Source: Lachnospiraceae bacterium
GTDB lineage: Bacteria; Bacillota; Clostridia; Lachnospirales; Lachnospiraceae
Direction of reading: 5' to 3'
NCBI GenBank assembly: GCA_016282915.1
Contig: JAEELW010000105.1
Span: 1 to 59,606 of the forward strand
Length of the DNA stretch: 59,606 bases
The notes below the pieces were generated by a model. The model saw nothing but the letters and a program-made list of their open reading frames with translations. It made no database searches and was not told the origin of the DNA. A program made the position numbers and the translations under genes. Shown here one piece after another: positions 10,893 through 50,723 of this stretch (the stretch's first letter is position 1; each line of letters starts with the position of its first letter).

Positions 10893-10965
10893 GTAGGTGG
10901 TATTGTGCTCTTTTCAGGGCAGAGGGAGCGGGGGACCCCGCACATACAGTGCATATGAGGGAAAT

Positions 10966-13900: not shown

Positions 13901-14181
13901 ACGGGCGCAAGCTGTATATGATGGGCGGGGAGAGCGGAAAGCTCTACATCTCCGTCTCGACCTCGGATATCGAGCTTCTGGCGGAAGGCAATATGGCACT
14001 CGGGATCGGAACCCTGAAGCAGGATTCGGAGCTGCGGCTGATCCGTTCAAGACTGGGCGTGGTGATGCGTGTCGGAGACCCGACGGTCATCGGCGTAAAG
14101 AAGGATATGCTGCTCCTGGTGGAAGTGGCGCAGCATATGAGCATAAATGATGAAGACGCGGATCTGTATGATCTCGTCTGA
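10966..14181 (+). CDS. GGDEF-EAL c-di-GMP protein with C-terminal beta-helix-like domain
   Basis: The 1071-residue protein has no membrane helix and should be cytoplasmic. Residues 1-280 form an uncharacterised N-terminal region. A GGDEF domain (about 285-440) has DVLTGLRN but MGSDEF at 364-369 instead of GGDEF, so cyclase activity is doubtful. An EAL domain (about 465-690) looks catalytically complete: YEAL (490-493), the Asn of LFINS, VEITEE, IDDFGSGYS with Asp605 and Asp606, VKIDR, AEGVE and QGYY. It should hydrolyse c-di-GMP. Residues about 720-1045 repeat Gly-rich beta strands (ITLxGxG-like turns, several GIG motifs) like the right-handed helices usually found in secreted carbohydrate-binding proteins. 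GAGGG lies just before ATG 10966. Confidence 0.88.
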   Translation: MKVTAICIGSVFDREKYLMAVRLTESRIRKGEHVLLLPLGMAKKAIKADKNTDFLYFLSAEHISECITVSGDSLDAAFIEALRKRMEELQIPFSVIRPEEIPAATENMKKKADEWQFKEVLLNERIAGDIFGFMERFLASDHVEQVSEAISGMIPKESFMCIRDSFLQDLYSDQLTPPRSSEKYFILCDSRKESRCWESYTLEEMFPDAEQVLEATPVTTLIPIHCKQAYVGYMVHLSRHVDEYSGVMELCTVILDMLTARYITERKLTFANHELLNANENVARLQETDVLTGLRNSMGFMKDAEDMLKRCKAAGQRITTVCVDLDRLGNINEIYGHLEGDIAIQMLAQIIADSVGKDVLSARMGSDEFIVLFPENEEGNAAEQLVELLRARLQTYNRVSGKEYTLEANISSLTITPDKKMVVEDLLDEAFTRKRMLKESRTGRRSMAHPDGIGINEKEHGVVRGIMDENAFLYAFQPIISARTGEIVAYEALMRTQQAPKLSPLTILKYATMDERLYDIELSTFNNVLRQVEQFKSVLGDKKLFINSIPGHFLTDTDYKKFRRRYKDFLPNLVVEITEETEFETHTAEILRARSDQDHFEVAIDDFGSGYSNMSNLLKFLPNYVKIDRTLIENVHEDPKKQHFVKTIIEFAHDNGFQALAEGVETSRELSAVVRMGVDLIQGYYTAKPSFILAETIAAPVRDEIVRANVASLHELSKKIYLVNREKELFLIQLAMEHYTGMILSQSELVLHGNPDLTAGISIKIKDGCSCRLRISNVRLGDLDNQPCIDIGKGASLTLIVEGNNEFEGNGIHVPEDASLRLEGSGSLKISPILSDAYCIGADSASAFGRIECAMSGALELSAEGNHCIAIGGGRCQSGDGIRLTAGRYDLSLSGDECVGIGCFNGEVPISITDVAMEAEAMVGEGAVIGALHGRQNIEIRNAGIKIVGSGSSVTGIGTSYETGGSIRIDDASIRMKFNGRKLYMMGGESGKLYISVSTSDIELLAEGNMALGIGTLKQDSELRLIRSRLGVVMRVGDPTVIGVKKDMLLLVEVAQHMSINDEDADLYDLV

Positions 14182-33871: not shown

Positions 33872-33880
33872 ACGATGCCA

Positions 33881-34040
33881 GGGTCAAAAGCTCATATGAC
33901 GGTCATGCTTGCATGAATCGGCATATGAGTTTGGGACCCGTCCGAACATGAGCAAGTAGCGAAATGCTTGTGCAGCAAGCATTTCAGCAGATTGCGAATG
34001 TTCGTAGAATTGCGGGAGTTGCGAAGCGACGAAGCAATTC
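33881..34040. repeat. three-hairpin structured intergenic repeat
   Basis: Hairpin A joins GGGTC and CTCATATG (33881-33898) with CATATGAG and GACCC (33922-33939). Hairpin B joins CGAACAT (33943-33949) with ATGTTCG (33998-34004) around a perfect 10-bp stem GAAATGCTTG/CAAGCATTTC (33961-33985). Hairpin C joins GAATTGC (34007-34013) with GCAATTC (34034-34040). The unit lies between the J-like gene and the rpmB promoter. I recall similar sequences as dispersed repeats in Lachnospiraceae; that is memory, not a search. Confidence 0.7.
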
Positions 34041-34069
34041 GTAGGCATCACATTAAATAAAAAAAATGC

Positions 34070-34917: not shown

Positions 34918-36606
34918 GTGGCAGAAAACTGTTTGGATGCGGCGCGCATTGCAAAAATCTTCCTTGCGGGTGCAAAAAAGCTGGAATCGCAGAAGGATCA
35001 TATCAATGAGCTGAATGTTTTTCCCGTACCGGACGGCGATACAGGAACCAATATGACGATGACGATCATGAGCGCGGCGAAGGATGTATACGCGCTTCAG
35101 GATCCCGATATGGCGTCGCTGTGCAAGAGCATCTCCTCCGGCTCCCTCCGTGGAGCACGCGGTAATTCCGGTGTGATCTTAAGCCAGCTTTTCCGCGGTT
35201 TTACCAAAGTGATCAAGACTACGGATCATATCGATGTGGCGGTGATCAGCGCCGGCTGCGATAAGGCTGTGGAGTCGGCATATAAGGCGGTCATGCAGCC
35301 GAAGGAAGGAACGATACTTACGGTAGCGCGAGCCATTGCGGAAAAGGCGAACAGCGTTTTTGAGCGCGGTGAGGAAGATCTGGATGTACTTTTTAAAGAA
35401 GTGATCGCGCATGCAAAGGCGGTGCTGGAGCGCACGCCCGAGATGCTTCCGGTACTGAAGGAAGCCGGTGTTGTGGATTCGGGCGGCTGCGGTCTGGTGG
35501 CAGTGCTGGAAGGCTTTTACGAAGGCTATCAGGGCAAGGGCATCGAGTTTACGATGGACGATGAGACCTCCCAGGCGGCCGGCGAGGTGCGCCATTTCTC
35601 GGGTGAGGACAGTCCGGCGCCGGAGTACCGTTATCTCTACCATACGACGATCTCACTGATCCTGGACAAGATCTTCCATCTGCAGCGTGAGCAGGAAGTG
35701 AGGAAATATCTGGAGAGCGTCGGCGACGAAGTGGCGCTGGCGGTCGATGACAATATCGTAAACGTATCCGTAAATACCAACGATCCCGGTATGGTGCTGC
35801 AGAAAGCACTGAAATTCGGCGAGCTGGTGGATGTGCAGGTGGTAAACCGCAGCAGACCCGTGAGAGAGAAGCAGGCTGCCGCCCCCACGGAGGCGAAAAA
35901 GGAGCCGGAGAAGGCCGAGGAAGCAAAGAAGCCGGAAGAGCCGGCGAAGCCCGTGGGCTTTGTGGCGGTATCCGCAGGCGCCGGCCTGGGCGAAATCTTT
36001 AAGAACCTGGGCGTAGACCGTCTGATCGAAGGCGGCCAGACCATGAATCCGAGCACCGAGGATGTGCTGAATGCCATTGCCGAGGTCAACGCGGAGACGG
36101 TGTTTGTATATCCGAATAATAAGAATATCATACTCGCGGCCAATCAGGCGAGAGACCTGACGAAGGACAAGAAGGTCATTGTTGTTCCCAGCAAGACGGT
36201 TCCCCAGGGGATCTCGGCGCTGCTGGCCTATATGCCGGACCAGTCCGTAAGGGCAAACGAGGGACTGATGAACGAGGCGCTCGGCTGCGTGCAGACCGGA
36301 TCCGTGACTTATGCGGTGCGCGATACCACCGTGGACGGTGTGGAGATCCATCAGGACGATTACATGGGCATCGGCGACAGCGGTATCCTTTCCAACGGCA
36401 GGGATATCTCCGAAGTCATGACCGGGATGCTTGAAAAGATGGTAAAGGAAGATTCCGAGCTGATCAGCGTCTACTACGGGCAGGAGGTGGAAGAAGCCGC
36501 TGCCGACATGATGCGCGACCGCCTTACGGAGCGTTTCCCGGAGCTGGATGTTGAATTCCAGCGCGGCGGCCAGCCGGTATATTATTATATCGTATCCGTG
36601 GAATAA
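34918..36606 (+). CDS. fakA: fatty acid kinase catalytic subunit, FakA-like (DAK2/YloV)
   Basis: The N-terminal DAK2 domain (about residues 1-200) has NVFPVPDGDTGTNMTMT, the ATP/Mg-binding motif, and SLRGARGNSGVILSQ. The C-terminal part (from about 345) matches the YloV/FakA region that works with FakB. The enzyme phosphorylates FakB-bound fatty acid for membrane phospholipid synthesis; no fakB is in the window. A Lys/Glu/Pro/Ala-rich segment of about 30 residues (about 315-345) splits the protein. GTG start with GGGAGGAAAGG upstream. The stop overlaps the recG start by one base. Confidence 0.9.
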   Translation: MAENCLDAARIAKIFLAGAKKLESQKDHINELNVFPVPDGDTGTNMTMTIMSAAKDVYALQDPDMASLCKSISSGSLRGARGNSGVILSQLFRGFTKVIKTTDHIDVAVISAGCDKAVESAYKAVMQPKEGTILTVARAIAEKANSVFERGEEDLDVLFKEVIAHAKAVLERTPEMLPVLKEAGVVDSGGCGLVAVLEGFYEGYQGKGIEFTMDDETSQAAGEVRHFSGEDSPAPEYRYLYHTTISLILDKIFHLQREQEVRKYLESVGDEVALAVDDNIVNVSVNTNDPGMVLQKALKFGELVDVQVVNRSRPVREKQAAAPTEAKKEPEKAEEAKKPEEPAKPVGFVAVSAGAGLGEIFKNLGVDRLIEGGQTMNPSTEDVLNAIAEVNAETVFVYPNNKNIILAANQARDLTKDKKVIVVPSKTVPQGISALLAYMPDQSVRANEGLMNEALGCVQTGSVTYAVRDTTVDGVEIHQDDYMGIGDSGILSNGRDISEVMTGMLEKMVKEDSELISVYYGQEVEEAAADMMRDRLTERFPELDVEFQRGGQPVYYYIVSVE

Positions 36607-38675: not shown

Positions 38676-38696
38676 TCTGTGTTAAAATCTCCATAT

Positions 38697-41600
38697 ATGC
38701 TCAATGTTGAACTGCTAAACAAGGCATCATTCTATCTCACAGGCTTTTTCATATGCCTGGCGTGCTTTATTTGCGCTTTTACCAGAAAAAAGACGCGGCG
38801 TCTGCAGAACCGTATCTATATCTGTCTCATACTCGACGTGATGATCGATGCAGGACTGGCTGTCATCGGGGTTTTTGCCGAGCCTTACTGGATGGTTTCC
38901 GACGGGGCGCGGATCTTTGTCGATACGGTCCGTTTTCTGTATTTCCTTGTGCATGCGGCGCTGGCACCGATCTTCTTCGTCTTTATGCTCTATGTGAGCG
39001 CCTCGATCAGCGTACACCGCAGGCACCGCTGGCGTTTCACCTTTTCCATGTTCCCCTTCCTGATCACCGAGATCCTTGTAGCGGTCAACCTTTTCAGCGG
39101 CTGTCTGTATTATACGGATGAGGCGCATGTCTATCACCGCGGTCCGCTCATGTGGGTGTTTTACGCATCGGCGGTGATCTATTTCATTCTGGCGCTGATC
39201 AGTATATTCCGTTACTGGTATGCGATCACGCCGAAACGCAGAAAGGGCGTTCTCTGTCTGTATATACTTACGATCTTCGGGATCGTGATGCAGCTGGTGG
39301 AACCGGATCTGCAGGTCGAGATCTTTGCGGAATCCATCGGGCTGGTATGCGCGATGATCTTCCTGGAAAGCGATGAAGAACGGACGGATGTGGGCAGCGG
39401 CCTGTTAAACCGCGGTGCGCTTACCCTGGATCTGAACAGTTTCATCCGCATGCATCAGCCCTTTTACGCATTTGTGATCTATGTAGCCAATCCGGATTCC
39501 CTGAACAAGCTGACGGCTGCGGTCTCTTCCGAGAGGCTTTTGGGGGAGGTGGCGAAATATCTTGGAAACCTCAATCCGCTCTATAACGTCTACAGGACTT
39601 CGCCGAACTGCTTCGTGCTGCTGGGGCTGAATTTGAGTGAGAGGGAGGCGGAAAAGCTCGAGGAGACGATACGGGGACGTTTTTCCGAAAACTGGTGCTG
39701 CGAAGGCGGAGAACTGATCCTTCGCGCGCTGGTCATGAGATCCGCATATCCCGGCGGGATCTCCACGGCGGAGGAAGTCTTCCTCATGAGCGATTCCCCC
39801 AAGCCCGTGGATGAGGCAGGGCATCTCCGGGAGGATGCGGGCCTGGAGGAGATCAAACGCAGCATCAATGTGGAACAGGCGCTGCGAAGGGGCTTTGAGG
39901 ATCACAATTTCGAGGTATATTACCAGCCGGTGTATACGATGGAAAACCTGAGCATCCATTCGGCAGAGGCGCTCATCCGTCTGCATGATCCCGAGCTCGG
40001 GGAGATCCAGCCAGTTGAGTTCATCCGTGTGGCGGAGAACGACGGCGCGATCGACAGGATCGGCAGCCTTGTCCTGGAGGAGGTCTGCCTCTTCCTTTCC
40101 AGCGGTCTGCCCGTGGAGATGGGGATCGAATACATCTGTGTCAATCTTTCGATCCTGCAGTGCATGCGGCCTAGCTTTGTCCATTACGTAAGGGATCTGG
40201 CGCTGCGTTATGACGTCTCGCCTTCCCTGATCTGCTTTGAGATCAAGGAATCGGCTGCGGCAAATGATTTCGTTGTGCTGCAGGATACCATCAGCGAACT
40301 GAAGCAATACGGTTTCCGTTTTTCCATGGACAGCTACGGGACCGGCTTTTCCGATATGCACGCCCTTTATGCGCTGGATTTCGATCTGATCAAGATCGAC
40401 CACAGCCTGCTGCAGAGGGCGGAGCCGGGCAGCATGGGCGAGATCATCTTAAGATCCTGTGTACGCATGCTGCGGCAGATGCGCAGAAGGATACTTGTGG
40501 AAGGCGCGGAGACCAGGGAGCAGATCGAGCTCCTCAAGCAGCTCGAGGTGGATTATGTGCAGGGCTATTATTCCTCAAAACCCATCACGAAGAATGAGCT
40601 GCTCGGTATCCTGCGCGTGACCGAACTGGCGCGTATGGAGGAACGGCGGGCCATCGCTGCCAGCGAAGCGAAATCCAGCTTTCTTGCCAATATGTCACAT
40701 GAGATCCGCACCCCCATCAACGCGGTGCTCGGCATGAACGCGATGATCCTGCGGGAATGCGATGAGGAGGCGGTCATGAATTACGCCCGCGAGATCGAAA
40801 CGGCAGGCCGTAATCTGCTGTCACTGATCAACAATATCCTGGATTATTCCAAGATCGAGGCGGGCGAGATGGAGATCGTCGAGGCAGAATACGATCTGAA
40901 GGAAAGCATAAGCGATGTGATACGCGACGCCTACCCGAAAACGGACCGGAAGCATCTGACCTTCCGCGTGGAGGTTTCCGAGGATCTGCCCGCGCGTCTG
41001 TACGGCGACGAATTCCGTATCAAACAGGTGCTGATCAACCTTCTGAACAATTCGGTGAAGTATACGGATGAGGGAAGCGTTCATCTGAGCGTGGAGGGAG
41101 AGAAGTATTCCGAGGATGAGCTGCTCCTGATCTTCCGCGTGGAGGATACGGGCCGGGGGATCCGGGAAGAGGATCAGAGCAAGCTTTATGAGATGTTCCA
41201 GCGCCTTGATATGGAGAGAAACCGTACCGTGGAAGGCACCGGGCTGGGACTGGCCATCAGCTATCACCTGCTGCAGATGATGCAGGGCGAGATCCAGGTG
41301 GAGAGCGAATACGGCGTCGGTTCTACCTTTACGGTGCAGTTATTGCAGAAGGTGGTGGGAGACAGGCGCATCCTTCCGTTTACGCCGGAGGAAATGAAGC
41401 AGATCATGCATACAAAGAATGAGCAGAGGGAATTTACCGCTGCGGATGCAAGAGTGCTGATCGTTGACGATACACCGATGAACCATACCGTATTGAAAGA
41501 GCTGCTCCGTAAAACGGGGATGCGGATCGAATCCGCACTGAACGGCGCGGACGGCCTGGAAATGGCGAGGGATCTTGCCTATGATCTGATCTTCATGGAT

Positions 41601-41852
41601 CAGCGCATGCCCGGAATGAACGGTTCCGAGGTGCTGAAGAAGCTGCGGGCATCGGAAGGAGCGAAGAGCCGCGATGCAAAGGTGATCAGCATGACGGCGA
41701 ACGCTTATCCCGGGATCCGGGAAGCGGAACGGAAAGAAGGCTTTGACGATTATATCGGAAAACCCGTGGATCGTGCGGAGCTGATGGAACTGGTACACAG
41801 ATATCTGCCGGAAGACAAGATCCATCCGGCCGGGGAACGGAATGATCATTGA
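38697..41852 (+). CDS. membrane sensor, degenerate GGDEF, degenerate EAL, histidine kinase, receiver
   Basis: A 1051-residue hybrid signalling protein. Residues 1-225 hold about seven membrane helices like the 7TM input region of some histidine kinases. About 230-385 is a GGDEF-like fold whose signature is replaced by RTSPNCF. The EAL domain (about 395-640) keeps Glu424 and the Asn, Lys, AEGxE-like and QGYY positions, but the Asp pair is Asp545-Ser546, so hydrolysis is doubtful. A kinase core follows with MSHEIRTP (His668), N-box, DTGRGI and GTGLGL, then a receiver with Asp968. No ribosome-binding site precedes ATG 38697, and TGT-TAAAAT (38680-38688) predicts a nearly leaderless message. The start overlaps nothing; the stop overlaps the next gene. 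Confidence 0.88.
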   Translation: MLNVELLNKASFYLTGFFICLACFICAFTRKKTRRLQNRIYICLILDVMIDAGLAVIGVFAEPYWMVSDGARIFVDTVRFLYFLVHAALAPIFFVFMLYVSASISVHRRHRWRFTFSMFPFLITEILVAVNLFSGCLYYTDEAHVYHRGPLMWVFYASAVIYFILALISIFRYWYAITPKRRKGVLCLYILTIFGIVMQLVEPDLQVEIFAESIGLVCAMIFLESDEERTDVGSGLLNRGALTLDLNSFIRMHQPFYAFVIYVANPDSLNKLTAAVSSERLLGEVAKYLGNLNPLYNVYRTSPNCFVLLGLNLSEREAEKLEETIRGRFSENWCCEGGELILRALVMRSAYPGGISTAEEVFLMSDSPKPVDEAGHLREDAGLEEIKRSINVEQALRRGFEDHNFEVYYQPVYTMENLSIHSAEALIRLHDPELGEIQPVEFIRVAENDGAIDRIGSLVLEEVCLFLSSGLPVEMGIEYICVNLSILQCMRPSFVHYVRDLALRYDVSPSLICFEIKESAAANDFVVLQDTISELKQYGFRFSMDSYGTGFSDMHALYALDFDLIKIDHSLLQRAEPGSMGEIILRSCVRMLRQMRRRILVEGAETREQIELLKQLEVDYVQGYYSSKPITKNELLGILRVTELARMEERRAIAASEAKSSFLANMSHEIRTPINAVLGMNAMILRECDEEAVMNYAREIETAGRNLLSLINNILDYSKIEAGEMEIVEAEYDLKESISDVIRDAYPKTDRKHLTFRVEVSEDLPARLYGDEFRIKQVLINLLNNSVKYTDEGSVHLSVEGEKYSEDELLLIFRVEDTGRGIREEDQSKLYEMFQRLDMERNRTVEGTGLGLAISYHLLQMMQGEIQVESEYGVGSTFTVQLLQKVVGDRRILPFTPEEMKQIMHTKNEQREFTAADARVLIVDDTPMNHTVLKELLRKTGMRIESALNGADGLEMARDLAYDLIFMDQRMPGMNGSEVLKKLRASEGAKSRDAKVISMTANAYPGIREAERKEGFDDYIGKPVDRAELMELVHRYLPEDKIHPAGERNDH

Positions 41853-43803
41853 ATTTATCAATAAAAATGCATTTCTGATCGCTTCGATCCTGATGTGCGG
41901 GCTGATGATCGGCTATACCGTGGCCATTCATCGTACGGACCGCAGCAGGAACCGCGTTTTTATGCTGCTCATGATCATTACGATGCTGAGCGCCGTGTGT
42001 GAAACGGGAAAGAGCGCCGTGCGGCTTGCCGGTCCGGGGACGACGGTATCCATGGTCCTGCTTGACGGGCTGGAATACCTGCATTCCGTCTTTCACCTGC
42101 TGATCCCGCTGTTCTTCTGTTTTTATGTCATACTGGTAAACGGCTCGCACCGCCATATGGGCCCGGGGAAAAGAGTGATCTTCTTTATGCCCTGCGTGCT
42201 GATGGAACTGCTGATCCTTACCAATCCTTTTCACCAGCTGGTCTATACCCATGACCGTGCGCTGGTATTCCATGGCGGCGTGGGGATGACGGCCTCCTAT
42301 GCAGTGGCTCTGGGCTATGCGTTCCTGGCGTTTTTCAATCTGATCCGCCACCGCAGGGCTCTCGCAGGGCGCCGTCTTACGACGATACTGTGCTTCCTGC
42401 CGGTCTCCGCCCTGGGGATCGCGGCGCAGCTGCTGGATCCGGCGATCAAGAGCGAGCTCTTTTCCGTAAGCCTGCTCCTGCTGGGCGTGATGCTCACGCT
42501 GGAGAATGAAGACGAGCGCATGGATGCGGCAACGGGCGTATACAACCGGACCACGCTGAAACAGTATCTGGACAACCTGTTCCGTCTGGGGCAGCATTAT
42601 CATGTGATCGCCGTGCGTATCACCAATTATGATATCCTGATGCGTCTGTCCGGCGGCAGGGGCGTGGACGCCGTGATGCAGTGCGTGGCCGATTATCTGA
42701 AGAAGGAATGTCCCTGGTACCGTATCTTCCGGGCTGACGCAACGGACTTCATGATCCTGACGGATCTGTCTTGTGAGGAAGTGGTGCGTCTTTCCGAGAG
42801 GATCTATGTGCGCTTCATGGACGGGCTTTACATCGAGGACTGTGACAAAGCCATCGCGGTGATGATCCTCAGAGCCGCGGTCCCGGAGGAGCTGGCAGCT
42901 CCCGGGAACGTGATGCTGATGGTGGATACGCCGATCCCGGAGAAGGAAGGAAAGGGGATCATCTGCGGAAAGCGCCTGGCCTATCTGACCCGCTCTGCGG
43001 ATCTGGGCGGCGCACTGGAAAGAGGGCTTAAGAACGGCGGCTTCTCGCTGGTATTCCAGCCGGTGCATATGCACGCCGACCTGGAACCCTGCGGGATGAA
43101 AGCGCTGCTGCGGCTCAACGATCCGGAGCTGGGGGCGCTGATGCCGGGAGAATTCATCCCGCAGGCAGAGCGTACGGGAATGATACAGGCCATCGGGGAG
43201 CTGGTGCTGGAGGAGAGCTGCCGCTTCCTGCAGAGCGGGGTGCCGGAAAAACTCGGATACCCCATGATGAGCATGAACCTGTCCCTGGTGCAGTGCCTGC
43301 AGCCGGATTTTGCGGAACGGGTATGCGCGATCCTGGATAAGTATAAGGTGGTTCCCCACAGGCTCATCTTTGAACTGCGGCGGCCGACCTCTCCCGAGGA
43401 TCACGAAGTGCTGTCACGGGTGATGAAGGTACTCAGGGAGCGGGGGATCCATTTTTCCCTTGAGGATTTCGGCGCGGGCTATGCAAATGTGGAAGCGATC
43501 CTGGAACTGGGCTTCGATGTGGTAAAGATCAACCGGAATATCCTCTGGGAGGCGATGGAAAGCGAGATGGGACGGATCGTTCTGCAGAATTCGATCCGGA
43601 TGATACAGGAACTGAAATGCGCCATCCTTGTGGAGGGCGTAGAGAGCCGGGAGCAGGTACGGATGCTGAGCGAACTGGCGGTGGACTTCATGCAGGGCTA
43701 TTATTTTTCAAAGCCCGTCACGAAGGAGGAACTCGAAAAGCTGGCAGCGGAGGGGAAAAAGATCCCCGGCACGGAGCATTTCGGACAGGTAAAGAATGGA
43801 TAA
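41842..43803 (+). CDS. membrane sensor with degenerate GGDEF and dead EAL domain
   Basis: A 653-residue paralog of its two neighbours, but without kinase or receiver. Residues 1-220 contain about seven membrane helices. The GGDEF-like part keeps ATGVYNR but has FRADATDF where GGDEF should be. The EAL domain (about 390-640) has Lys420-Ala-Leu instead of Glu-Ala-Leu, ELRRPT in place of ExTE, and Glu541-Asp542 instead of Asp-Asp. It should therefore bind c-di-GMP at most, not cleave it. It starts 11 bases inside the preceding gene and overlaps the next gene by eight, so all three are translationally coupled. A regulatory partner of the two kinases is a reasonable guess. Confidence 0.87.
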   Translation: MIIEFINKNAFLIASILMCGLMIGYTVAIHRTDRSRNRVFMLLMIITMLSAVCETGKSAVRLAGPGTTVSMVLLDGLEYLHSVFHLLIPLFFCFYVILVNGSHRHMGPGKRVIFFMPCVLMELLILTNPFHQLVYTHDRALVFHGGVGMTASYAVALGYAFLAFFNLIRHRRALAGRRLTTILCFLPVSALGIAAQLLDPAIKSELFSVSLLLLGVMLTLENEDERMDAATGVYNRTTLKQYLDNLFRLGQHYHVIAVRITNYDILMRLSGGRGVDAVMQCVADYLKKECPWYRIFRADATDFMILTDLSCEEVVRLSERIYVRFMDGLYIEDCDKAIAVMILRAAVPEELAAPGNVMLMVDTPIPEKEGKGIICGKRLAYLTRSADLGGALERGLKNGGFSLVFQPVHMHADLEPCGMKALLRLNDPELGALMPGEFIPQAERTGMIQAIGELVLEESCRFLQSGVPEKLGYPMMSMNLSLVQCLQPDFAERVCAILDKYKVVPHRLIFELRRPTSPEDHEVLSRVMKVLRERGIHFSLEDFGAGYANVEAILELGFDVVKINRNILWEAMESEMGRIVLQNSIRMIQELKCAILVEGVESREQVRMLSELAVDFMQGYYFSKPVTKEELEKLAAEGKKIPGTEHFGQVKNG

Positions 43804-46800
43804 GGGCTGGATCGTACAACTTCATGAATCGGCGATACTGATCGCGACCATGCTGGTCGGGCTGATCATCTATGTCTATACGCTGCTGCACCGCCGCACG
43901 TGGAAAAAGCAGAACAGTGCTTTTCTGCTGCTGGTGAGCTTTGTCATGTTCAACAGCCTGACGGAGACGATCCGTATCTTTCTGCTGCCGGATTTCCGCG
44001 ACAGCGTCGTCGCGCGCTGGCTCGTTCACTGCATGCAGTTTCTGTATTTTGCCACCCACAGTTTTCTGAGTTCGCTCTTTCTTTACTATGTGCTGCTGGC
44101 CAGCGGTGTCACGGAACGCAACAACAGGAAGGTGAACCGGCGGAAAGGGCAGATCTATATGATCCCCGTGATGATCTGCTTCCTGCTGGTACTGGTCAAC
44201 CCGTTTATCGGGCTGGTCTACCGCCTGAATGAGGGCGGGGCAATCATACGCCGCGCCGGGGAACTGGCGATCTATGCCATCGGGGCGTTCTATTTTATCG
44301 TGGCTGCCGCGACCCTGTTCCGTAACTGGCATTCCATCGAGACGCGGAAAAAATGGTCGATGCTGCTCTATTTTGTCTTCAGTCTGGGCGGGGTACTGCT
44401 GCAGTTCTACGATGTGAGGATACGCAGCGAGCTTTTCGGCGAGATGCTGGCTCTTCTGGGGATCATGCTCCTGGTGGAGAATGAGGATGAACGTTTCGAG
44501 GCGAAGACCGGCGTATACAACCGTGCCGCCCTTCTGGCGGATCTGAATACCAGCTTAAAGATCCTGGATTCCTTCCACGCGATCTGTGTCCGCATCACCA
44601 ACGCCGATATGCTGCAGCGTCTGCTGGGTACCGGAGATACCGACGAGCTGATCGGGATCGCGGCCGAGCGGCTCAAAAAAGAGCATCCCAGGCAGTTTAT
44701 CTACCGTACCTCGCCGGACAGCTTCATCCTGATCTGTACCGATTCCGAGGCGCAGGCGGCGGATCTGGCAAACCGTATTTATGAGAGCTTCCGCAGTACT
44801 TTTGATTACAGGGATGCAAAGCTCACGCTCAAGGCGGTGGTGATGCGCACCACGATCCCCGAGGTCTTTGAACGCCGTGAGGATGTGATGCTCCTTTCCG
44901 ACGGACCGCTGCCGCTGCGGGAGACGGAACATGTGCTCGAAGGGCGCGAACTGGATTATCTGGTAAGGCGCGCCGAGGTGGAAAGCGCTCTGCACCGCGG
45001 TCTCGAAGAGCAGCATTTTGAGGTCTATTACCAGCCTGTTTACCGGACAAAGGGAATGTCCATTTATTCCGCCGAAGCACTGCTGCGGCTGAAAGATTCA
45101 AAGATCGGCAATATCATGCCGGACGAGTTCATCCCGATCGCGGAACAGAGCGGCATGATCCACCGTCTGGGAGATTACGTGCTGGAAGAAGTGTGCCTGT
45201 TCCTTTCCAGCGGTATCCCTACCGAGATGGGGCTTGACTGCATCGAGATCAACCTTTCCGTGCTCCAGTGCCTGCAGCCGGGTTTTGTGGAGCGGGTCTG
45301 CGAGATCGTCCGGAAATATGATGTGGAACCCTGTTATATCAATTTTGAGGTGACGGAGTCGGCGGCTGCCGGCGATTACGCCGCGCTGGATACGGTCCTC
45401 AAGGATCTGAAGGGGCACGGCTTCCTGCTTTCACTGGATGATTACGGGATCGGTTATTCCAATGTGCGAAGCGTCTTCTCGATGGATTTCGAAATGGTCA
45501 AGATCGACAAGGCCATCCTCTGGGAGGTACAGAAGGACGGAAACGGCCGCGGCGGCGTGATCCTGGAAAACAGCGTGAACATGATACGCCAGATGAATTT
45601 CAAGATCCTGGTGGAGGGAGTGGAGACCCATGAGCAGCTGGAGCTTCTGGAGGAGCTGGACGTGGACTATCTGCAGGGCTATTATTTCTCGAGGCCCGTG
45701 AGCAAGAACGAGCTGCTCGGCATCCTGCGCGTTACCGAACTGGCCCGCATGGAGGAGCAGCGCGCCCGTGCCGCCAGCGATGCGAAATCAAATTTCCTTG
45801 CCAATATGTCCCACGAGATCCGCACGCCGATCAATGCGATCCTCGGCATGAACGAGATGATCCTCCGGGAGAGCAAAAACAGCCGCATCCTGGAATACGC
45901 CCAGAACATCGAAGGGGCCGGCCGCACACTGGTCTCGCTCATCAACGATATCCTGGATTTTTCAAAGATCGAGTCGGGAAGCATGGAGATCATGGAATCC
46001 GAATACGACCTGAGCTCTGTGGTAAATGATGTAGTCAATATGATACAGGTGAAGGCGCGGGAGAAAAATCTGGACTTCATCATCCATGTGGATCCGGATC
46101 TGCCGGATGCCCTGTACGGTGACGGCATGCGTCTGCGGCAGATCATGGTGAACATCCTGAACAATGCCGTAAAATACACACAGAAGGGCAGCGTGACCCT
46201 GGAGGTGAACGGAGAGCTCTGCGGCAGGGACCAGCTGAAGCTTGTGGTGGCGGTTGCGGATACCGGTATCGGCATACGTGAAGAGGATATCGGAAAACTC
46301 TTTAACAAGTTCCAGCGTTTCGACGAGGGGATGAACCGCGCCATCGAAGGCAGCGGACTGGGACTGGCGATTACCTGGAACCTGCTGCAGATCATGAAGG
46401 GCGAGATCAGCGCGCGTTCGGTCTACGGCAAGGGTTCCACCTTTACGGTGATGCTGCCCCAGCGCATCGTGCGCAAGGACGCTATCGGGGATTTCCGCCG
46501 CAAATATCTGCGCAATGTCAAAGAGAGGGAGATCTACCATGAGAGTTTCCGGGCACCGGAAGCCTGCATCCTGGTGGTGGACGATACACCGGTGAACCAT
46601 CTGGTGATCCGTGAACTGCTGAAAAAGACTAAGATACAGATCGATACGGCCATGAGCGGCAGGGAATGCCTGGAGATGGTGAGGAGACGGGGATATGACC
46701 TGATCTTCCTGGATTTCCGCATGCCGGAGATGGACGGGATCGAAACGCTGCACATCCTGCGCGGGATGGAGGAGCATCCCAACAGCAGCACGCCTGTGAT

Positions 46801-47569
46801 CGCGCTCACGGCCAATGCCGTGGCGGGAGCAAGGGAACGTTTCCTCGGAGAAGGCTTCGACGAATACATGATCAAGCCCGTGGATGGACGAAAGCTCGAA
46901 GAGATGCTGCTTCGGTTCCTTCCGCCGGTGAAGATACAGCATGGTGGCGCTGAGGACGAAGAGGCGGAGGAGAACGCGGAAGCCGAAGACTGGATGAAGG
47001 AACTATCGGATATCGATTACCGGACAGGCCTGAAGAACTGCGGATCGGCCGATGGATACCGCAGCGTGCTGAAGATCTACTATGAGGGCATGCATGCCAA
47101 GGCAGACGAGATCGAGCGGCTGTATCGGAGCGCCGACTGGGAGAATTACACGATACAGGTGCATGCGCTGAAGAGCTCCTCCCGCGTGATCGGTGCGACG
47201 GAGCTGGGGGAGGAGGCCTGGACGCTGGAGCAGGCCGGCAATGCGCTGGATCTCGATACGATACGGGAAAAAACGGAAGCATTGCTGACCCATTACCGTT
47301 CCTATGAAAAAGTTCTGGCGGGACTTTTCGGGGAAGACAGCGAAGACGCCGCGGAAGAGGAACTGCCGGAGATCTCGGCAGCGGAATTAAAAGATGCTTA
47401 TGAAACCATGAAAGATTTTGCAAATCTCTACGATTATGATAATATGTTATTTATACTTGATTCGTTAAAAGGCTACCGCCTGCCCGCTGAGGACAGGGAG
47501 AAGCTTCGGAACATACGCACCTGGGCGGAGAATTTCCAATGGGAAGAGATCGCCGGGATACTTGGCTGA
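43796..47569 (+). CDS. membrane sensor, degenerate GGDEF, EAL, histidine kinase, receiver, HPt
   Basis: The largest member, 1257 residues. Seven or so membrane helices (1-225) precede a GGDEF-like fold with YRTSPDSF instead of GGDEF. The EAL domain (about 400-640) looks fully active: Glu427, Asn486, FEVTES, Asp548-Asp549, VKIDK, VEGVE and QGYYFSRP. Then come MSHEIRTP (His673), DTGIGI and GSGLGL of a kinase core, a receiver with Asp973, and an HPt domain with His1123 in VHALKSSS. A last segment of about 90 residues is unassigned. All phosphorelay elements lie in one chain, next to a c-di-GMP phosphodiesterase. The following gene encodes a response regulator. Confidence 0.9.
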   Translation: MDKGWIVQLHESAILIATMLVGLIIYVYTLLHRRTWKKQNSAFLLLVSFVMFNSLTETIRIFLLPDFRDSVVARWLVHCMQFLYFATHSFLSSLFLYYVLLASGVTERNNRKVNRRKGQIYMIPVMICFLLVLVNPFIGLVYRLNEGGAIIRRAGELAIYAIGAFYFIVAAATLFRNWHSIETRKKWSMLLYFVFSLGGVLLQFYDVRIRSELFGEMLALLGIMLLVENEDERFEAKTGVYNRAALLADLNTSLKILDSFHAICVRITNADMLQRLLGTGDTDELIGIAAERLKKEHPRQFIYRTSPDSFILICTDSEAQAADLANRIYESFRSTFDYRDAKLTLKAVVMRTTIPEVFERREDVMLLSDGPLPLRETEHVLEGRELDYLVRRAEVESALHRGLEEQHFEVYYQPVYRTKGMSIYSAEALLRLKDSKIGNIMPDEFIPIAEQSGMIHRLGDYVLEEVCLFLSSGIPTEMGLDCIEINLSVLQCLQPGFVERVCEIVRKYDVEPCYINFEVTESAAAGDYAALDTVLKDLKGHGFLLSLDDYGIGYSNVRSVFSMDFEMVKIDKAILWEVQKDGNGRGGVILENSVNMIRQMNFKILVEGVETHEQLELLEELDVDYLQGYYFSRPVSKNELLGILRVTELARMEEQRARAASDAKSNFLANMSHEIRTPINAILGMNEMILRESKNSRILEYAQNIEGAGRTLVSLINDILDFSKIESGSMEIMESEYDLSSVVNDVVNMIQVKAREKNLDFIIHVDPDLPDALYGDGMRLRQIMVNILNNAVKYTQKGSVTLEVNGELCGRDQLKLVVAVADTGIGIREEDIGKLFNKFQRFDEGMNRAIEGSGLGLAITWNLLQIMKGEISARSVYGKGSTFTVMLPQRIVRKDAIGDFRRKYLRNVKEREIYHESFRAPEACILVVDDTPVNHLVIRELLKKTKIQIDTAMSGRECLEMVRRRGYDLIFLDFRMPEMDGIETLHILRGMEEHPNSSTPVIALTANAVAGARERFLGEGFDEYMIKPVDGRKLEEMLLRFLPPVKIQHGGAEDEEAEENAEAEDWMKELSDIDYRTGLKNCGSADGYRSVLKIYYEGMHAKADEIERLYRSADWENYTIQVHALKSSSRVIGATELGEEAWTLEQAGNALDLDTIREKTEALLTHYRSYEKVLAGLFGEDSEDAAEEELPEISAAELKDAYETMKDFANLYDYDNMLFILDSLKGYRLPAEDREKLRNIRTWAENFQWEEIAGILG

Positions 47570-47581
47570 CGGAGGGAACAA

Positions 47582-48346
47582 ATGGCAAATAAGGTATTAT
47601 TGATCCGCCGGGAAGAGACCTTTCTGGTGAATACCATAAAAGCCCAGCTGAACAAGAACGGTTTTGAATTTATCGAGGCCGGAATGTTGCTGAAGGATAT
47701 CACGCGGCATAAGGATGAAGTGACACTGATGGTGCTTTACGCAGATGATACCATCGGGGAATCGAGGGACACGCTGGTCTATATCAAGGACCTGCTCCTT
47801 GAGGAAGAGAAGGAGCTGATCGTAGCCGGCGGCCGCAATGAGCTGGAAGAGGTGGAAAAGATCATTCCGCGCGAGCTGATCGAAGGAGTATACGAACGAC
47901 CTTTCGATATGCAGCGCATCATGGATCATATCGGTGACTTTCTTGATGACGAGCTCCTGCAGCAGCGCAAGAAGATGATACTCATCGTGGACGATGACCC
48001 GACCTACCTGAAGCTGATCAAGGAATGGCTGAAGGAGGATTACCGTGTGGGCATGGCCAGTTCCGGGATGCAGGCCATTACCTGGCTGGCAAATAACACG
48101 GCGGATCTGGTGCTCCTGGATTACGAAATGCCGACGATCAAAGGCTCGAAAGTGCTGGAGATGATGAAATCCGAGGCAAATTCCTCGACGATCCCCGTGA
48201 TGTTCCTGACCGGTAAAAGTGATAAGGAAGCTATCATGGAAGTGCTGGCGTTAAAACCTGCGGGCTATCTCTTAAAGACCATAGACCGTAAAACACTGCT
48301 GGATACACTGGAGAAATTCTTTGTGGAGCAGAAGTATAAAAAGTAA
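47582..48346 (+). CDS. response regulator with degenerate plus canonical receiver
   Basis: A 254-residue protein of two tandem receiver-like domains and no output domain. Residues about 1-120 follow the receiver fold but have lost the acidic pair (LIRREE) and carry Arg-Pro in place of the conserved Lys-Pro, so they should not be phosphorylated in the usual way. Residues 130-250 are a normal receiver: ILIVDDDP, the phospho-acceptor Asp in VLLDYEMP, Thr in FLTGKS and Lys in LLKTI. It lies 12 bases after the HPt-bearing kinase and is the obvious phosphoryl acceptor. Without an effector domain it likely acts through protein contacts. Confidence 0.9.
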   Translation: MANKVLLIRREETFLVNTIKAQLNKNGFEFIEAGMLLKDITRHKDEVTLMVLYADDTIGESRDTLVYIKDLLLEEEKELIVAGGRNELEEVEKIIPRELIEGVYERPFDMQRIMDHIGDFLDDELLQQRKKMILIVDDDPTYLKLIKEWLKEDYRVGMASSGMQAITWLANNTADLVLLDYEMPTIKGSKVLEMMKSEANSSTIPVMFLTGKSDKEAIMEVLALKPAGYLLKTIDRKTLLDTLEKFFVEQKYKK

Positions 48347-48360
48347 GGAGGTAAACGGCT

Positions 48361-49773
48361 GTGTGGGAATATCTGAGAAATCTCTGTGAGCGTCTTGTAA
48401 ACGGGCTGGGCGGAGTGATCGCGGCGATCCTGCTCCTGGTGCTGGCTTTTATCGTGAGCGCGATCGTGAAGGCGCTGATCACGGGCGCCCTGAAAAAGAC
48501 GAAACTCCGCTATCTCAATCAGAACCAGGTAAACCCCGACGGCTCGCCGGCACTGTCCAGCGGCCAGGGCCTGATCAATTACATCGGCAAGCTGGTCTAC
48601 CTTTGCGTATTCCTGCTTTTTGTACCCGGGATCTTTTCGACCCTGGGCGTCAATTCGGTGATGGAACCGCTGAACAGCCTGCTGCATACCGTATGGGGCT
48701 ATGTGCCCAATATCCTCGCGGCGGGGATCGTGCTCGTGGTGGGCTCGCTCATCGCCAAGCTGGTCCGTGAGCTGCTGGTCCCCGTATTCCAGAAGATCCG
48801 CCTGGATAAGATCCAGGAAAAGGCCGGCATAGAAGTGGATAATGAGTCGAAGCTTTCGGTCACGCTGGCCTATATCATTTATGTACTGATCATGATCCCC
48901 GTGGTGATCGTATCCCTGCAGGCGCTGAACATCACCGCCGTTTCCCAGCCCGCCGTGGAGATGCTGGGCGTTGTCTTCAGCTTTATCCCGCAGCTGGTCA
49001 TCGCCATCGTGCTGATCTGGGTCGGCGTGCTGATCGGCAAATACACCGGCCGCATCGTAGCGAAGCTCATCGCTTCGGCCGGCGCGGATGCAAAGATACG
49101 CGAACTGGCGGGAGAGAAGTCGAAGGATTTCCGTTTTTCCAAAACCGTCGGTACCGTGGTGACCGTGGTCCTGGATATCTTCTTCATCGTTGAGGGAATG
49201 AACGTGCTCAATCTGTCCGTGCTCACGGGCGTGGGCAGCCGGGTCATCTCCTATATGCCCAGCGTCCTGGCAAGCGTGCTGATCCTTGCCTGTGCATTCC
49301 TGATGCTGGCTGCAGTGGAGAAAGCGCTGAAAAAGAGCGGACTGGAACAGTATACTATCTTCTCCCGTGCGGCGATCCTCATCCTGGCGGCCTTTATGGT
49401 ACTGAATCAGCTGGGTATCGCAGCGACCATCGTCAATACGGCGTTTGTGATCATCCTGGCAGCCGTCGGTGTTGCCTTTGCGGTGGCCTTCGGGATCGGC
49501 GGGCGCAAGTTTGCTGCCGATACACTGGAAAAGCTGGAAAAGCGCGGAGCGGAGAGCGGAGAGAATACAGCAGCAGCGGAGAAAGCGGAGGAGAAGCCCG
49601 CCGTCGCAGCGGAAGTAAAGGAAGAAAAAGCGGAGAAGGCGGAGGAGAAGCCCGCCGCCGCAGCGGAAGTAAAGGAAGAAAAAACGGATGTGCCGGGTGA
49701 AAAGCCCGCCGCCGGGGAGAGTGCGGCAGAAGCTGCAGCAGACGAAAAAACTCCCGGAGATGAAAAGAAATAA
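48361..49773 (+). CDS. MscS-related membrane protein with repeated TM helices
   Basis: The 470-residue protein has about ten hydrophobic helices. Several repeat the pattern GxxIxxxVRxxL following a helix, as in the conserved TM helix group (PF05552) linked to mechanosensitive channels. VAFAVAFGIGGRKFAADTLEKL is its most typical segment. A final 85 residues are Ala/Glu/Lys-rich and contain an 18-residue tandem repeat; they should be cytoplasmic. GTG start, with AAGGAGG eight bases upstream. Only 14 bases separate it from the response regulator, so its expression may follow that cluster. Confidence 0.82.
   Translation: MWEYLRNLCERLVNGLGGVIAAILLLVLAFIVSAIVKALITGALKKTKLRYLNQNQVNPDGSPALSSGQGLINYIGKLVYLCVFLLFVPGIFSTLGVNSVMEPLNSLLHTVWGYVPNILAAGIVLVVGSLIAKLVRELLVPVFQKIRLDKIQEKAGIEVDNESKLSVTLAYIIYVLIMIPVVIVSLQALNITAVSQPAVEMLGVVFSFIPQLVIAIVLIWVGVLIGKYTGRIVAKLIASAGADAKIRELAGEKSKDFRFSKTVGTVVTVVLDIFFIVEGMNVLNLSVLTGVGSRVISYMPSVLASVLILACAFLMLAAVEKALKKSGLEQYTIFSRAAILILAAFMVLNQLGIAATIVNTAFVIILAAVGVAFAVAFGIGGRKFAADTLEKLEKRGAESGENTAAAEKAEEKPAVAAEVKEEKAEKAEEKPAAAAEVKEEKTDVPGEKPAAGESAAEAAADEKTPGDEKK
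49585..49683. repeat. 54-bp in-frame tandem repeat
   Basis: GCGGAGGAGAAGCCCGCCG begins copies at 49585 and 49639. The two agree except for isolated changes and encode AEEKPA(V/A)AAEVKEEK, expanding the C-terminal tail of the membrane protein. Confidence 0.85.
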
Positions 49774-49796: not shown

Positions 49797-50723
49797 ATGT
49801 CAGGCCTGTTAAACAAAGCGGAGCGAAAGCTCGGAAAATATGCAATACCCCATCTGCCTCTGGTAATGCTGATCATTTACGCCATAGGCTATCTGATGGA
49901 AAAGATCAATCCGGAGATCATCCTGTATCTGTCACTCAATCCTTATGCGATACTTCACGGCGAAGTATGGAGGATCATTTCCTGGGTGCTGATCCCGCCG
50001 GAATCGGACAATCTGTTCCTGGTTCTGATCATGCTGTATTTTTATTATTCGATCGGGACTACGCTGGAGCGGACCTGGGGGAATTTCTATTTCAACCTTT
50101 ATATTTTCTCGGGTATCCTGTTTACGGTGCTGGGAGCCTTCTGCTTTTACGGCTATGTCATGCTCTTTGGCGGCGGTGCGGAGGCGCTGGCTCTGGAGCA
50201 GCTGACCCTCGGCAGCGGGAACGCCGTTCCGGGAGGAAGCGTGCTCTTTGCCTATTCATCGCTGATGTTTTCCACCTATTACATCAACATGTCCATATTC
50301 CTTGCTTTTGCGGCGACCTATCCGGACATGCAGGTGCTTCTGATGTTCATCATTCCGATCAAGGTCAAGGTCCTGGGTGTGATCTATGCCATCTTCCTTG
50401 TGTATGAAGCCTGGGAGATGGGCGTGACGGGGCTTTTTGTGATCGGTGCATCGCTCTTAAACTTCCTGGTCTTCTTCCTGATGACAAGGAAGCGTCTGCG
50501 CCGCAGTCCGCAGATGCGGGCGCGCCAGCGGGCCTACAGGAGAGAAGTGCATGAGAGTATGAATACGAGGACCATCGCTAGACACAAATGCGCGATCTGC
50601 GGAAGGACCAGTGAAGAATATCCGGATCTGGAATTCCGTTTCTGCTCAAAATGTGAGGGGAATTATGAGTACTGCCAGGATCATCTCTTCTCCCACAAGC
50701 ATATCGTGAGGAACGAAAAGTGA
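49797..50723 (+). CDS. rhomboid-like membrane protein with C-terminal zinc ribbon, apparently non-catalytic
   Basis: About six helices are seen. GEVWRIISWVLIPP and IGTTLERTWGNFYFNLYIFSGI match the L1 loop and helix region of rhomboid proteases. The Gly-x-Ser-Gly active-site motif and the late catalytic His are missing, so it should not cleave. The C-terminal 60 residues contain CAICG, FCSKC, then a Cys-His-His set (EYCQDHLFSHKH), a likely zinc-binding ribbon on the cytoplasmic side. It may bind membrane or RNA partners. The stop overlaps the next start by four bases. Confidence 0.75.
   Translation: MSGLLNKAERKLGKYAIPHLPLVMLIIYAIGYLMEKINPEIILYLSLNPYAILHGEVWRIISWVLIPPESDNLFLVLIMLYFYYSIGTTLERTWGNFYFNLYIFSGILFTVLGAFCFYGYVMLFGGGAEALALEQLTLGSGNAVPGGSVLFAYSSLMFSTYYINMSIFLAFAATYPDMQVLLMFIIPIKVKVLGVIYAIFLVYEAWEMGVTGLFVIGASLLNFLVFFLMTRKRLRRSPQMRARQRAYRREVHESMNTRTIARHKCAICGRTSEEYPDLEFRFCSKCEGNYEYCQDHLFSHKHIVRNEK

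Follow-up and report, generated by a model that had tools for sequence, protein, structure and literature searches.

EAL domains upstream of hybrid kinases in a conserved four-gene locus of a Lachnospiraceae bacterium: a putative phosphorelay linked to cyclic di-GMP

Enzymes of cyclic di-GMP (c-di-GMP) turnover and phosphorelays usually meet at the output, where the GGDEF or EAL domain is under the control of a receiver. Can an EAL domain also stand at the input end of a histidine kinase (HK), and what would it do there? This question is raised by four consecutive plus-strand genes, here named A, B, C and D, that lie 3' of recG in a stretch of 59,606 nucleotides (the window: contig JAEELW010000105.1, positions 1 to 59,606) of the Lachnospiraceae bacterium assembly GCA_016282915.1 (3.85 Mb, 181 contigs). 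A preliminary description had read the locus as three coupled paralogs joining a membrane sensor with GGDEF-like and EAL domains, followed by a double-receiver protein, and had suggested that a membrane signal or the level of c-di-GMP gates phosphoryl flow. The observation is confirmed by our analysis and the interpretation partly supported. With our confidence evenly divided for and against, we hypothesize that hybrid kinases captured a membrane-bound c-di-GMP phosphodiesterase for use as their input module, that C would erase and A and B would sense c-di-GMP, and that phosphate would pass via the histidine phosphotransfer (HPt) domain of C to D.

Pfam matches, our own profiles and the gene order kept in sister genomes agree with the coordinates and the four-gene architecture first described (Table 1). 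Neighbouring genes overlap by 11 bp (A/B) and 8 bp (B/C), and 12 bp separate C from D. Pfam placed an EAL domain in A, B and C (E-values 6×10−55, 1.6×10−55 and 2.3×10−57), HisKA, HATPase_c and Response_reg in A and C, and Hpt in C (E 2×10−7), so that two paralogs do carry a kinase and a receiver (REC) and one of them an HPt domain. The term 'GGDEF-like' was apt as well: the Pfam GGDEF score was 22.2 for B (cut-off 23.8) and 27.1 for C and was not reported for A, and no GG(D/E)EF signature, the mark of a diguanylate cyclase, was seen in the alignment of the three. A seven-transmembrane (7TM) head, HisKA_7TM (PF16927), exceeded the cut-off of 28.6 only in B (39.8; A, 24.4; C, not listed), and an AlphaFold model of B (mean pLDDT 87.6, 35 rows) predicts seven long helices at the N-terminus and, after them, the GGDEF and EAL folds, in keeping with a membrane sensor. 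The Foldseek relatives of this model in the PDB include the GGDEF-EAL structures MorA, DosP, PA0575 and LapD. Between EAL and HisKA lie 28 residues in both A and C, with nearly identical linker letters, and no PAS or HAMP domain was found there; nor was a ShkA-type pseudo-receiver found between kinase core and REC, the gap from HATPase_c to REC being only 34–37 residues in A and C. Use of c-di-GMP signalling by the source organism is likely, given the 57 GGDEF matches in its genome, of which B and C account for two, along with 5 for flagellin and 4 for PilZ.

If the genes were not conserved together, the preliminary description held, its proposal would fall. Among 60 relatives searched, 34 of them congeners of the source genome, close orthologues of D (69–83% identity) were present in 11 of the 34 congeners and close orthologues of B (43–58%) in exactly the same 11; the other 23 had neither, and at best, in some of them, a B-type protein of ≤31% or a D-type protein of ≤52% identity. 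Joint conservation therefore withstood this check. The order A-B-C-D was kept in all nine uncut loci, running from recG through the four genes, a mechanosensitive-channel (MS-channel) gene in four loci, to a gene with the working label 'rhomb'; two further loci were cut by contig ends (A-B-C / D in G032, A-B / C-D in G010; G and L numbers are our handles for genomes and loci). In G031 gene A is broken within its kinase domain and occupies two frames (L045:4948-8088), by assembly error or decay, and C of G026 (L047:5737-9399) is without part of the 7TM region in its reading frame. One genome, G020, lacked all four genes (no D match at E 1e-20 and no B match at 1e-60, a cut-off passed also by the A and C proteins of the 12 cluster-bearing genomes); recG and the MS-channel gene lie about 150 bp apart there. 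It branches with G031 as its sister inside the group of genomes that bear the cluster (SH-aLRT, the Shimodaira–Hasegawa-like approximate likelihood ratio test, 98; a quick tree in which many rows filled less than half of the columns). Because all four genes are absent and G020 stands inside that group, the block was most likely lost there in one piece. Across species A, B and C each formed a group with 100% support (tree without L082, L083, L054 and L150), and with 98–100% support in a tree that leaves out the EAL columns. Since sister genomes preserve both the gene order and the residues, A-D is a real unit and not a chance arrangement.

The EAL domains of this unit differ in a fixed manner. 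Residues are given in RocR numbering, checked by the offset of 245–246 residues in the PDB match to 3sy8; the seven key ones are E175, N233, E265, D295, D296, K316 and E352. The importance of these residues, K316 apart, is described in PMC7911125. In the window and the 11 congeners (12 genomes; the locus of the twelfth is L195), C carried all seven in 12 of 12, the residue set of an EAL phosphodiesterase, and is apparently the one active phosphodiesterase of the cluster, as had been supposed. A and B lacked the full set in every genome. In A the metal ligand D296 was replaced throughout (Ser in 10, Gly in 1, Arg in 1) and the other listed positions were kept, and B had Lys at E175 and Glu at D295 in all 12. 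Pocket residues were largely kept in all three proteins. Among 10 genomes the active-site columns were more often invariant than the whole EAL domain: 11/12 vs 120/247 in A (p=0.002, hypergeometric), 10/12 vs 70/248 in B (p=8×10−5) and 12/12 vs 153/250 in C (p=0.002). This pattern of one intact and two altered domains, like the joint loss, goes beyond what a single sequence could offer the preliminary description.

Of the ExLxR motif A has every residue and B every one but the first, the position at which the KVL motif of LapD also departs from it. According to a review (PMC10333796), an EAL domain that has lost catalysis is able to retain c-di-GMP binding, for which ExLxR is decisive; in LapD, which has the same E-to-K change, the EAL domain was seen with c-di-GMP bound (PMC3032553). 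B fits a LapD-type receptor in its degenerate GGDEF and in KxL replacing ExL (alignments); the HAMP and periplasmic output domains of LapD are absent from it, Pfam giving HisKA_7TM, GGDEF and EAL only and the model a seven-helix head. Because pocket residues are largely kept in A, B and C and B has the LapD-like substitution, gating of phosphoryl flow by c-di-GMP appears plausible.

The residue set of a multi-step His-Asp-His-Asp phosphorelay is present in full: HisKA His, N and G boxes, REC Asp, HPt His and the Asp of a second REC. In the window and nine congeners the kinase His and the N boxes occur in all A and C and the HPt His in 10 of 10 C; REC, kinase and HPt residues are intact in A and C except in the split A of G031, where the G2 box and REC are off-frame. 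As the cluster holds no other HPt domain, we infer that the REC of A would use that of C. For D, Pfam gave one Response_reg match, and the AlphaFold model (pLDDT 88.6, pTM 0.55) predicts two receiver folds, their mutual arrangement being unsure, in line with the double-receiver protein of the first reading. The best Foldseek match was PleD, whose residues 4–115 matched the second receiver of D, which fits the canonical receiver being the first in PleD. In this second receiver D137, D138, Asp180, Thr210 and Lys232 were invariant in 32 of 32 aligned homologues. The first receiver looks degenerate: in the alignment Tyr53 stands opposite Asp180 of the second, the usual acidic pair is missing, and Tyr or Phe is in line with the phosphosite across the 32 homologues. 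D55, an Asp two places past Tyr53, leaves slight doubt on this. An output domain was sought in D by Pfam and predicted fold and rejected, and for a PleD-like GGDEF output Pfam, the model and Foldseek gave two receiver folds and no further domain. Among named sequences, D is matched most closely in metagenome assemblies of Lachnospiraceae from the rumen, RGIG7963 (water buffalo, 80%) and RGIG6971 (sheep, 77%), which makes an uncultured rumen member of this family the most likely source.

Two-receiver (pREC-REC) proteins of this kind are often found next to HPt domains. We collected 117 copies by similarity to D, which are thus mutually related and not independent events; an HPt protein was adjacent or fused in 87 (83 directly upstream, 3 directly downstream, 1 fused), and 4 lay at an upstream contig edge. 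Thinning at 95% identity gave 86 of 114. The count leaves out the repeats L082, L083, L092, L122 and L054, the unused L041 and, by an open reading frame filter, copies in L101, L107, L110, L139, L156 and L163; the copy in L040 was entered manually. The one fusion joins REC, HPt and pREC-REC in a single protein (L162:3345-5009; by Pfam, two receivers and Hpt) and is the best single hint that HPt passes phosphate to the receiver pair. Intact residues, frequent pairing and fusion together lend support to the phosphorelay reading, and the distribution points to D as one of a class of frequent partners of HPt-ended hybrid kinases, chiefly in Lachnospiraceae and also in some Selenomonadales. No description of this output class was found in the open-access literature.

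The same loci bear on whether the four genes act together. A, B and C might each sense on its own, as paralogs that duplication placed in one operon; they would then neither assemble into a complex nor share a relay, and only C and D would make up a pathway. C and D without adjacent A and B in other loci (e.g. L053, L085, L088, L090, L095) would suit this. A, however, has no HPt of its own, gene order and all-or-none presence in congeners argue against independence, and in several other loci (L098, L102, L105, L108, L121, L134) an HK-REC gene that lacks HPt stands next to an HPt-hybrid or REC-HPt gene together with pREC-REC. We regard such independence as very improbable.

Other pREC-REC loci showed variants. 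A hybrid kinase-REC-HPt protein (L163:18-3814) has an apparent DegV-like stretch between REC and HPt, by our reading of the sequence, and is followed by a pREC-REC-like gene. Solitary pREC-REC loci (L055-L058, L060) yielded no function, with no kinase match beside L055, L056, L057 and L060; the adjacent gene in L055 has a DUF4236 domain (Pfam), and its start is alike in L056, L057 and L060. A frame about 3.5 kb from the pREC-REC gene of L057 may be FlgK-like.

Relatives of the EAL domains range from complete enzymes to eroded forms. All 14 stand-alone 7TM-degenerate GGDEF-EAL proteins retained the seven key residues, and 13 of them all twelve positions ('stand-alone' meaning no pREC-REC gene within the 6–16 kb examined; 3 of the 14 rows had no 7TM or GG profile match, and the loci were drawn from the better matches, with G185 and G108 left out). 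Outside the clade of the window the seven were kept by 0 of 11 such proteins in pREC-REC loci and by 1 of 19 kinase-fused EAL domains (L090); seven of these 19 (L085, L086, L053, L054, L091, L095, L104) differ at E352 alone, with Ser, Thr or Ala. Identical EAL stretches were removed from these counts, the near-identical pairs L053/L054, L097/L183 and L181/L182 being still included; L180 and L184 are on the contigs of L085 and L097, respectively. Routes of loss vary (E352; D296; E175 with D295; erosion). We tried and rejected the row comparison (0 of 14 unlinked vs 45 of 57 linked rows lost; Fisher p=4×10−8) as proof of a link between kinase capture and catalytic loss, the tree events being few; catalytic loss with kinase linkage appears as a trend from few independent events. 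Orthology of B with B', the kinase-less partner in Butyrivibrio, was also rejected (approximately unbiased (AU) test, p=8.7×10−26; tree without L082, L083, L054, L150, L137, L138 and L073); as the two do not form one clade, kinase-less partners seem to have more than one origin. A contiguous EAL-kinase match occurred in at least 2 of 398 genomes sampled from the phylum, the source genome and G063, with at most three candidates scored per genome.

Could the GGDEF-EAL part be a structural dimer or signal-transmission module only, connecting 7TM to kinase with no c-di-GMP gating, so that the residue pattern is an ancestral relic? Such a module would agree with the degenerate GGDEF of A, B and C and with Butyrivibrio, whose kinase-fused relatives have lost most EAL pocket residues and yet retain kinase, REC, HPt and D. 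In the clade of the window, however, active-site columns, substituted ones included, are conserved above the domain average, C is intact throughout, and fixation of K and E by drift in every B is hardly to be expected at 43–58% protein identity, so that we find this alternative improbable. No more probable, in our estimate, is a reverse flow in which the kinases and phosphorelay set the phosphodiesterase of C, via its fused REC or the DHp state, the output being local removal of c-di-GMP and D a phosphate sink or feedback element. That C is the sole member with a complete EAL domain and that D is without output domain would fit, as would the HD-GYP-type (PF13487) proteins directly 3' of pREC-REC genes in 3 of 9 selected neighbours (L080:13736-16120, L126:10765-13104, L098:9431-11560), possibly another c-di-GMP link. 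Against reverse flow, an EAL domain upstream of a kinase holds the position of an input domain, and 18 of the 19 kinase-fused EAL domains outside the clade have lost at least one key residue, such relays mostly seeming to run without hydrolysis.

Our own hypothesis, capture as a sensory input, also faces contrary evidence. B is without the first residue of ExLxR, the motif reported to decide binding (PMC10333796). The eroded pocket of the Butyrivibrio-type kinases indicates that the fold can serve without c-di-GMP, and because kinase and relay domains persist there, it is unlikely that c-di-GMP serves as input in all of the wider family. On the tree (without L073, L146, L150, L054, L137 and L138) catalytic state changes only four times and linkage twice, so independent events give no statistical support to the link between capture and catalytic loss. 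The best tree leaves A, B and C ungrouped as one expansion, and a single expansion is not rejected either (AU p=0.08, on the row set used for B'). Finally, 26 of the 117 pREC-REC copies, none of them at an upstream contig edge, have something else or nothing in the place of an HPt neighbour.

Under the capture hypothesis, a phosphodiesterase of the 7TM-degenerate GGDEF-EAL type would have become the input of a hybrid kinase and be present here in three copies. The 7TM part may receive a membrane signal. The EAL domain of C would hydrolyse c-di-GMP, and those of A and B would bind it uncut, A lacking the metal ligand D296 and B having the E-to-K change of LapD together with D295E. The ligand or dimer state of EAL would act through the short linker on the HisKA dimers of A and C; given the 28-residue spacing and the near-identical linker in both, it could reach the DHp helices directly. 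Phosphate would run from the His of A and C to their REC domains, to the sole HPt of the cluster on C, and to the second receiver of D. Kinase-less B might be a receptor subunit or a decoy that sets the others, and D, with no output domain, might act by binding a target. A more specific form, which we put forward tentatively and hold to be less probable than the general one, is a circuit in which the two altered EAL subunits read local c-di-GMP and set the hybrid kinases and the intact EAL on the HPt-bearing kinase removes the ligand; the relay would then report pulses of c-di-GMP near the membrane and adapt in the manner of chemoreceptor methylation.

Table 1. Positions in the window of genes A-D, their domains and the adjoining gene
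Feature	Position	Strand	Remarks
Gene A	38697-41852	+	in-frame GTG also at 38679
A, 7TM	38697-39350	+	Pfam and own profiles
A, degenerate GGDEF	39369-39869	+	Pfam and own profiles
A, EAL	39876-40583	+	Ser546 (40332-40334) at D296 position
A, HisKA-HATPase; REC	40668-41342; 41454-41795	+	His668, Asp968 present
Gene B	41842-43803	+	no kinase
B, 7TM; degenerate GGDEF	41842-42504; 42505-43002	+	Pfam and own profiles
B, EAL	43012-43716	+	E175K = Lys420 (43099-43101); D295E = Glu541 (43462-43464)
Gene C	43796-47569	+	7TM-degenerate GGDEF-EAL-kinase-REC-HPt
C, 7TM; degenerate GGDEF	43796-44461; 44480-44977	+	Pfam and own profiles
C, EAL	44987-45697	+	catalytic set complete
C, HisKA-HATPase; REC	45782-46465; 46568-46909	+	Pfam
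C, HPt	47066-47260	+	His1123 at 47162-47164
Gene D	47582-48346	+	two receivers
D, first receiver, degenerate-looking	47582-47947	+	Tyr53 aligned with phosphosite
D, second receiver, canonical	47978-48310	+	Asp180 at 48119-48121
MS_channel_1st_1 (mechanosensitive-channel helix) protein	48361-49773	+	3' of D; Pfam

The MS-channel gene was considered as effector or part of the module and rejected, lying between D and the next gene in only 4 of 9 loci and directly after recG in G020; we judge it to be an older neighbour outside the module. The gene that follows (49797-50723) had no Pfam match, and its label 'rhomb', like 'DAK' for the gene at 34918-36606, is provisional. Elsewhere in the window, positions 10897-14181 encode a 1094-aa protein in which a GGDEF domain (84 bits) is combined with an EAL domain whose catalytic set is intact. 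A Clostridiales-1 RNA (RF01699, 129 bits) lies at 33873-34050, 5' of the Asp23 and recG genes; it and one tRNA alone reached the Rfam gathering thresholds in the window, and no c-di-GMP riboswitch did.

What sets this locus apart is an EAL enzyme at the input end, with related genes that range from a complete stand-alone enzyme to an eroded kinase-linked form. It is suggestive of kinase signalling in which the messenger c-di-GMP is both read and erased, and the range of relatives offers a means of testing by what route an enzyme turns into a sensor and whether kinases come under the control of altered EAL domains. Should the circuit of reading and erasing prove true, the family would exemplify the stepwise conversion of a phosphodiesterase of bacteria into a sensor for kinases.

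In the open-access literature, outside which most subscription journals lie, so that this is not proof of absence, we found no account of the gene set A-D or of a histidine kinase that has an EAL domain for its input module. To this extent the combination is undescribed, as the preliminary description had it; control of a hybrid kinase in a phosphorelay by c-di-GMP is known, however, from the ShkA-ShpA-TacA system of Caulobacter, where c-di-GMP acts directly on ShkA (PMC7010744). There, too, the path leads from c-di-GMP on a hybrid kinase over a phosphotransferase step to a receiver protein. ShkA differs in binding c-di-GMP at its pseudo-receiver, whereas the candidate ligand domain here is the EAL domain upstream of HisKA, one copy of which may cleave the ligand. 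The receiver protein TacA, moreover, acts as a transcription factor (PMC7010744), whereas D shows no output domain. LapD resembles B as a membrane protein with a degenerate GGDEF and an EAL domain whose first catalytic Glu is Lys, but it controls periplasmic proteolysis, whereas B has a 7TM head and adjoins kinases (PMC3032553). The Roc systems of Pseudomonas (RocS/RocA/RocR) likewise unite an HPt-type phosphorelay and an EAL phosphodiesterase in one network; their EAL domain is a response-regulator output, in contrast to the kinase-input position in A-D (PMC12051241). CckA, SgmT, RavS and PdtaS are kinases governed by c-di-GMP, but the available parts of PMC10333796, PMC9600515 and PMC10519070 describe no EAL domain as their input. 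PleD shares two receiver folds with D; its GGDEF output is absent from D, and the canonical receiver of D is the second. Kinases and relays governed by c-di-GMP are thus already known, and what appears to be new here, judged from sequence, is an EAL enzyme at the kinase input together with this gene set.

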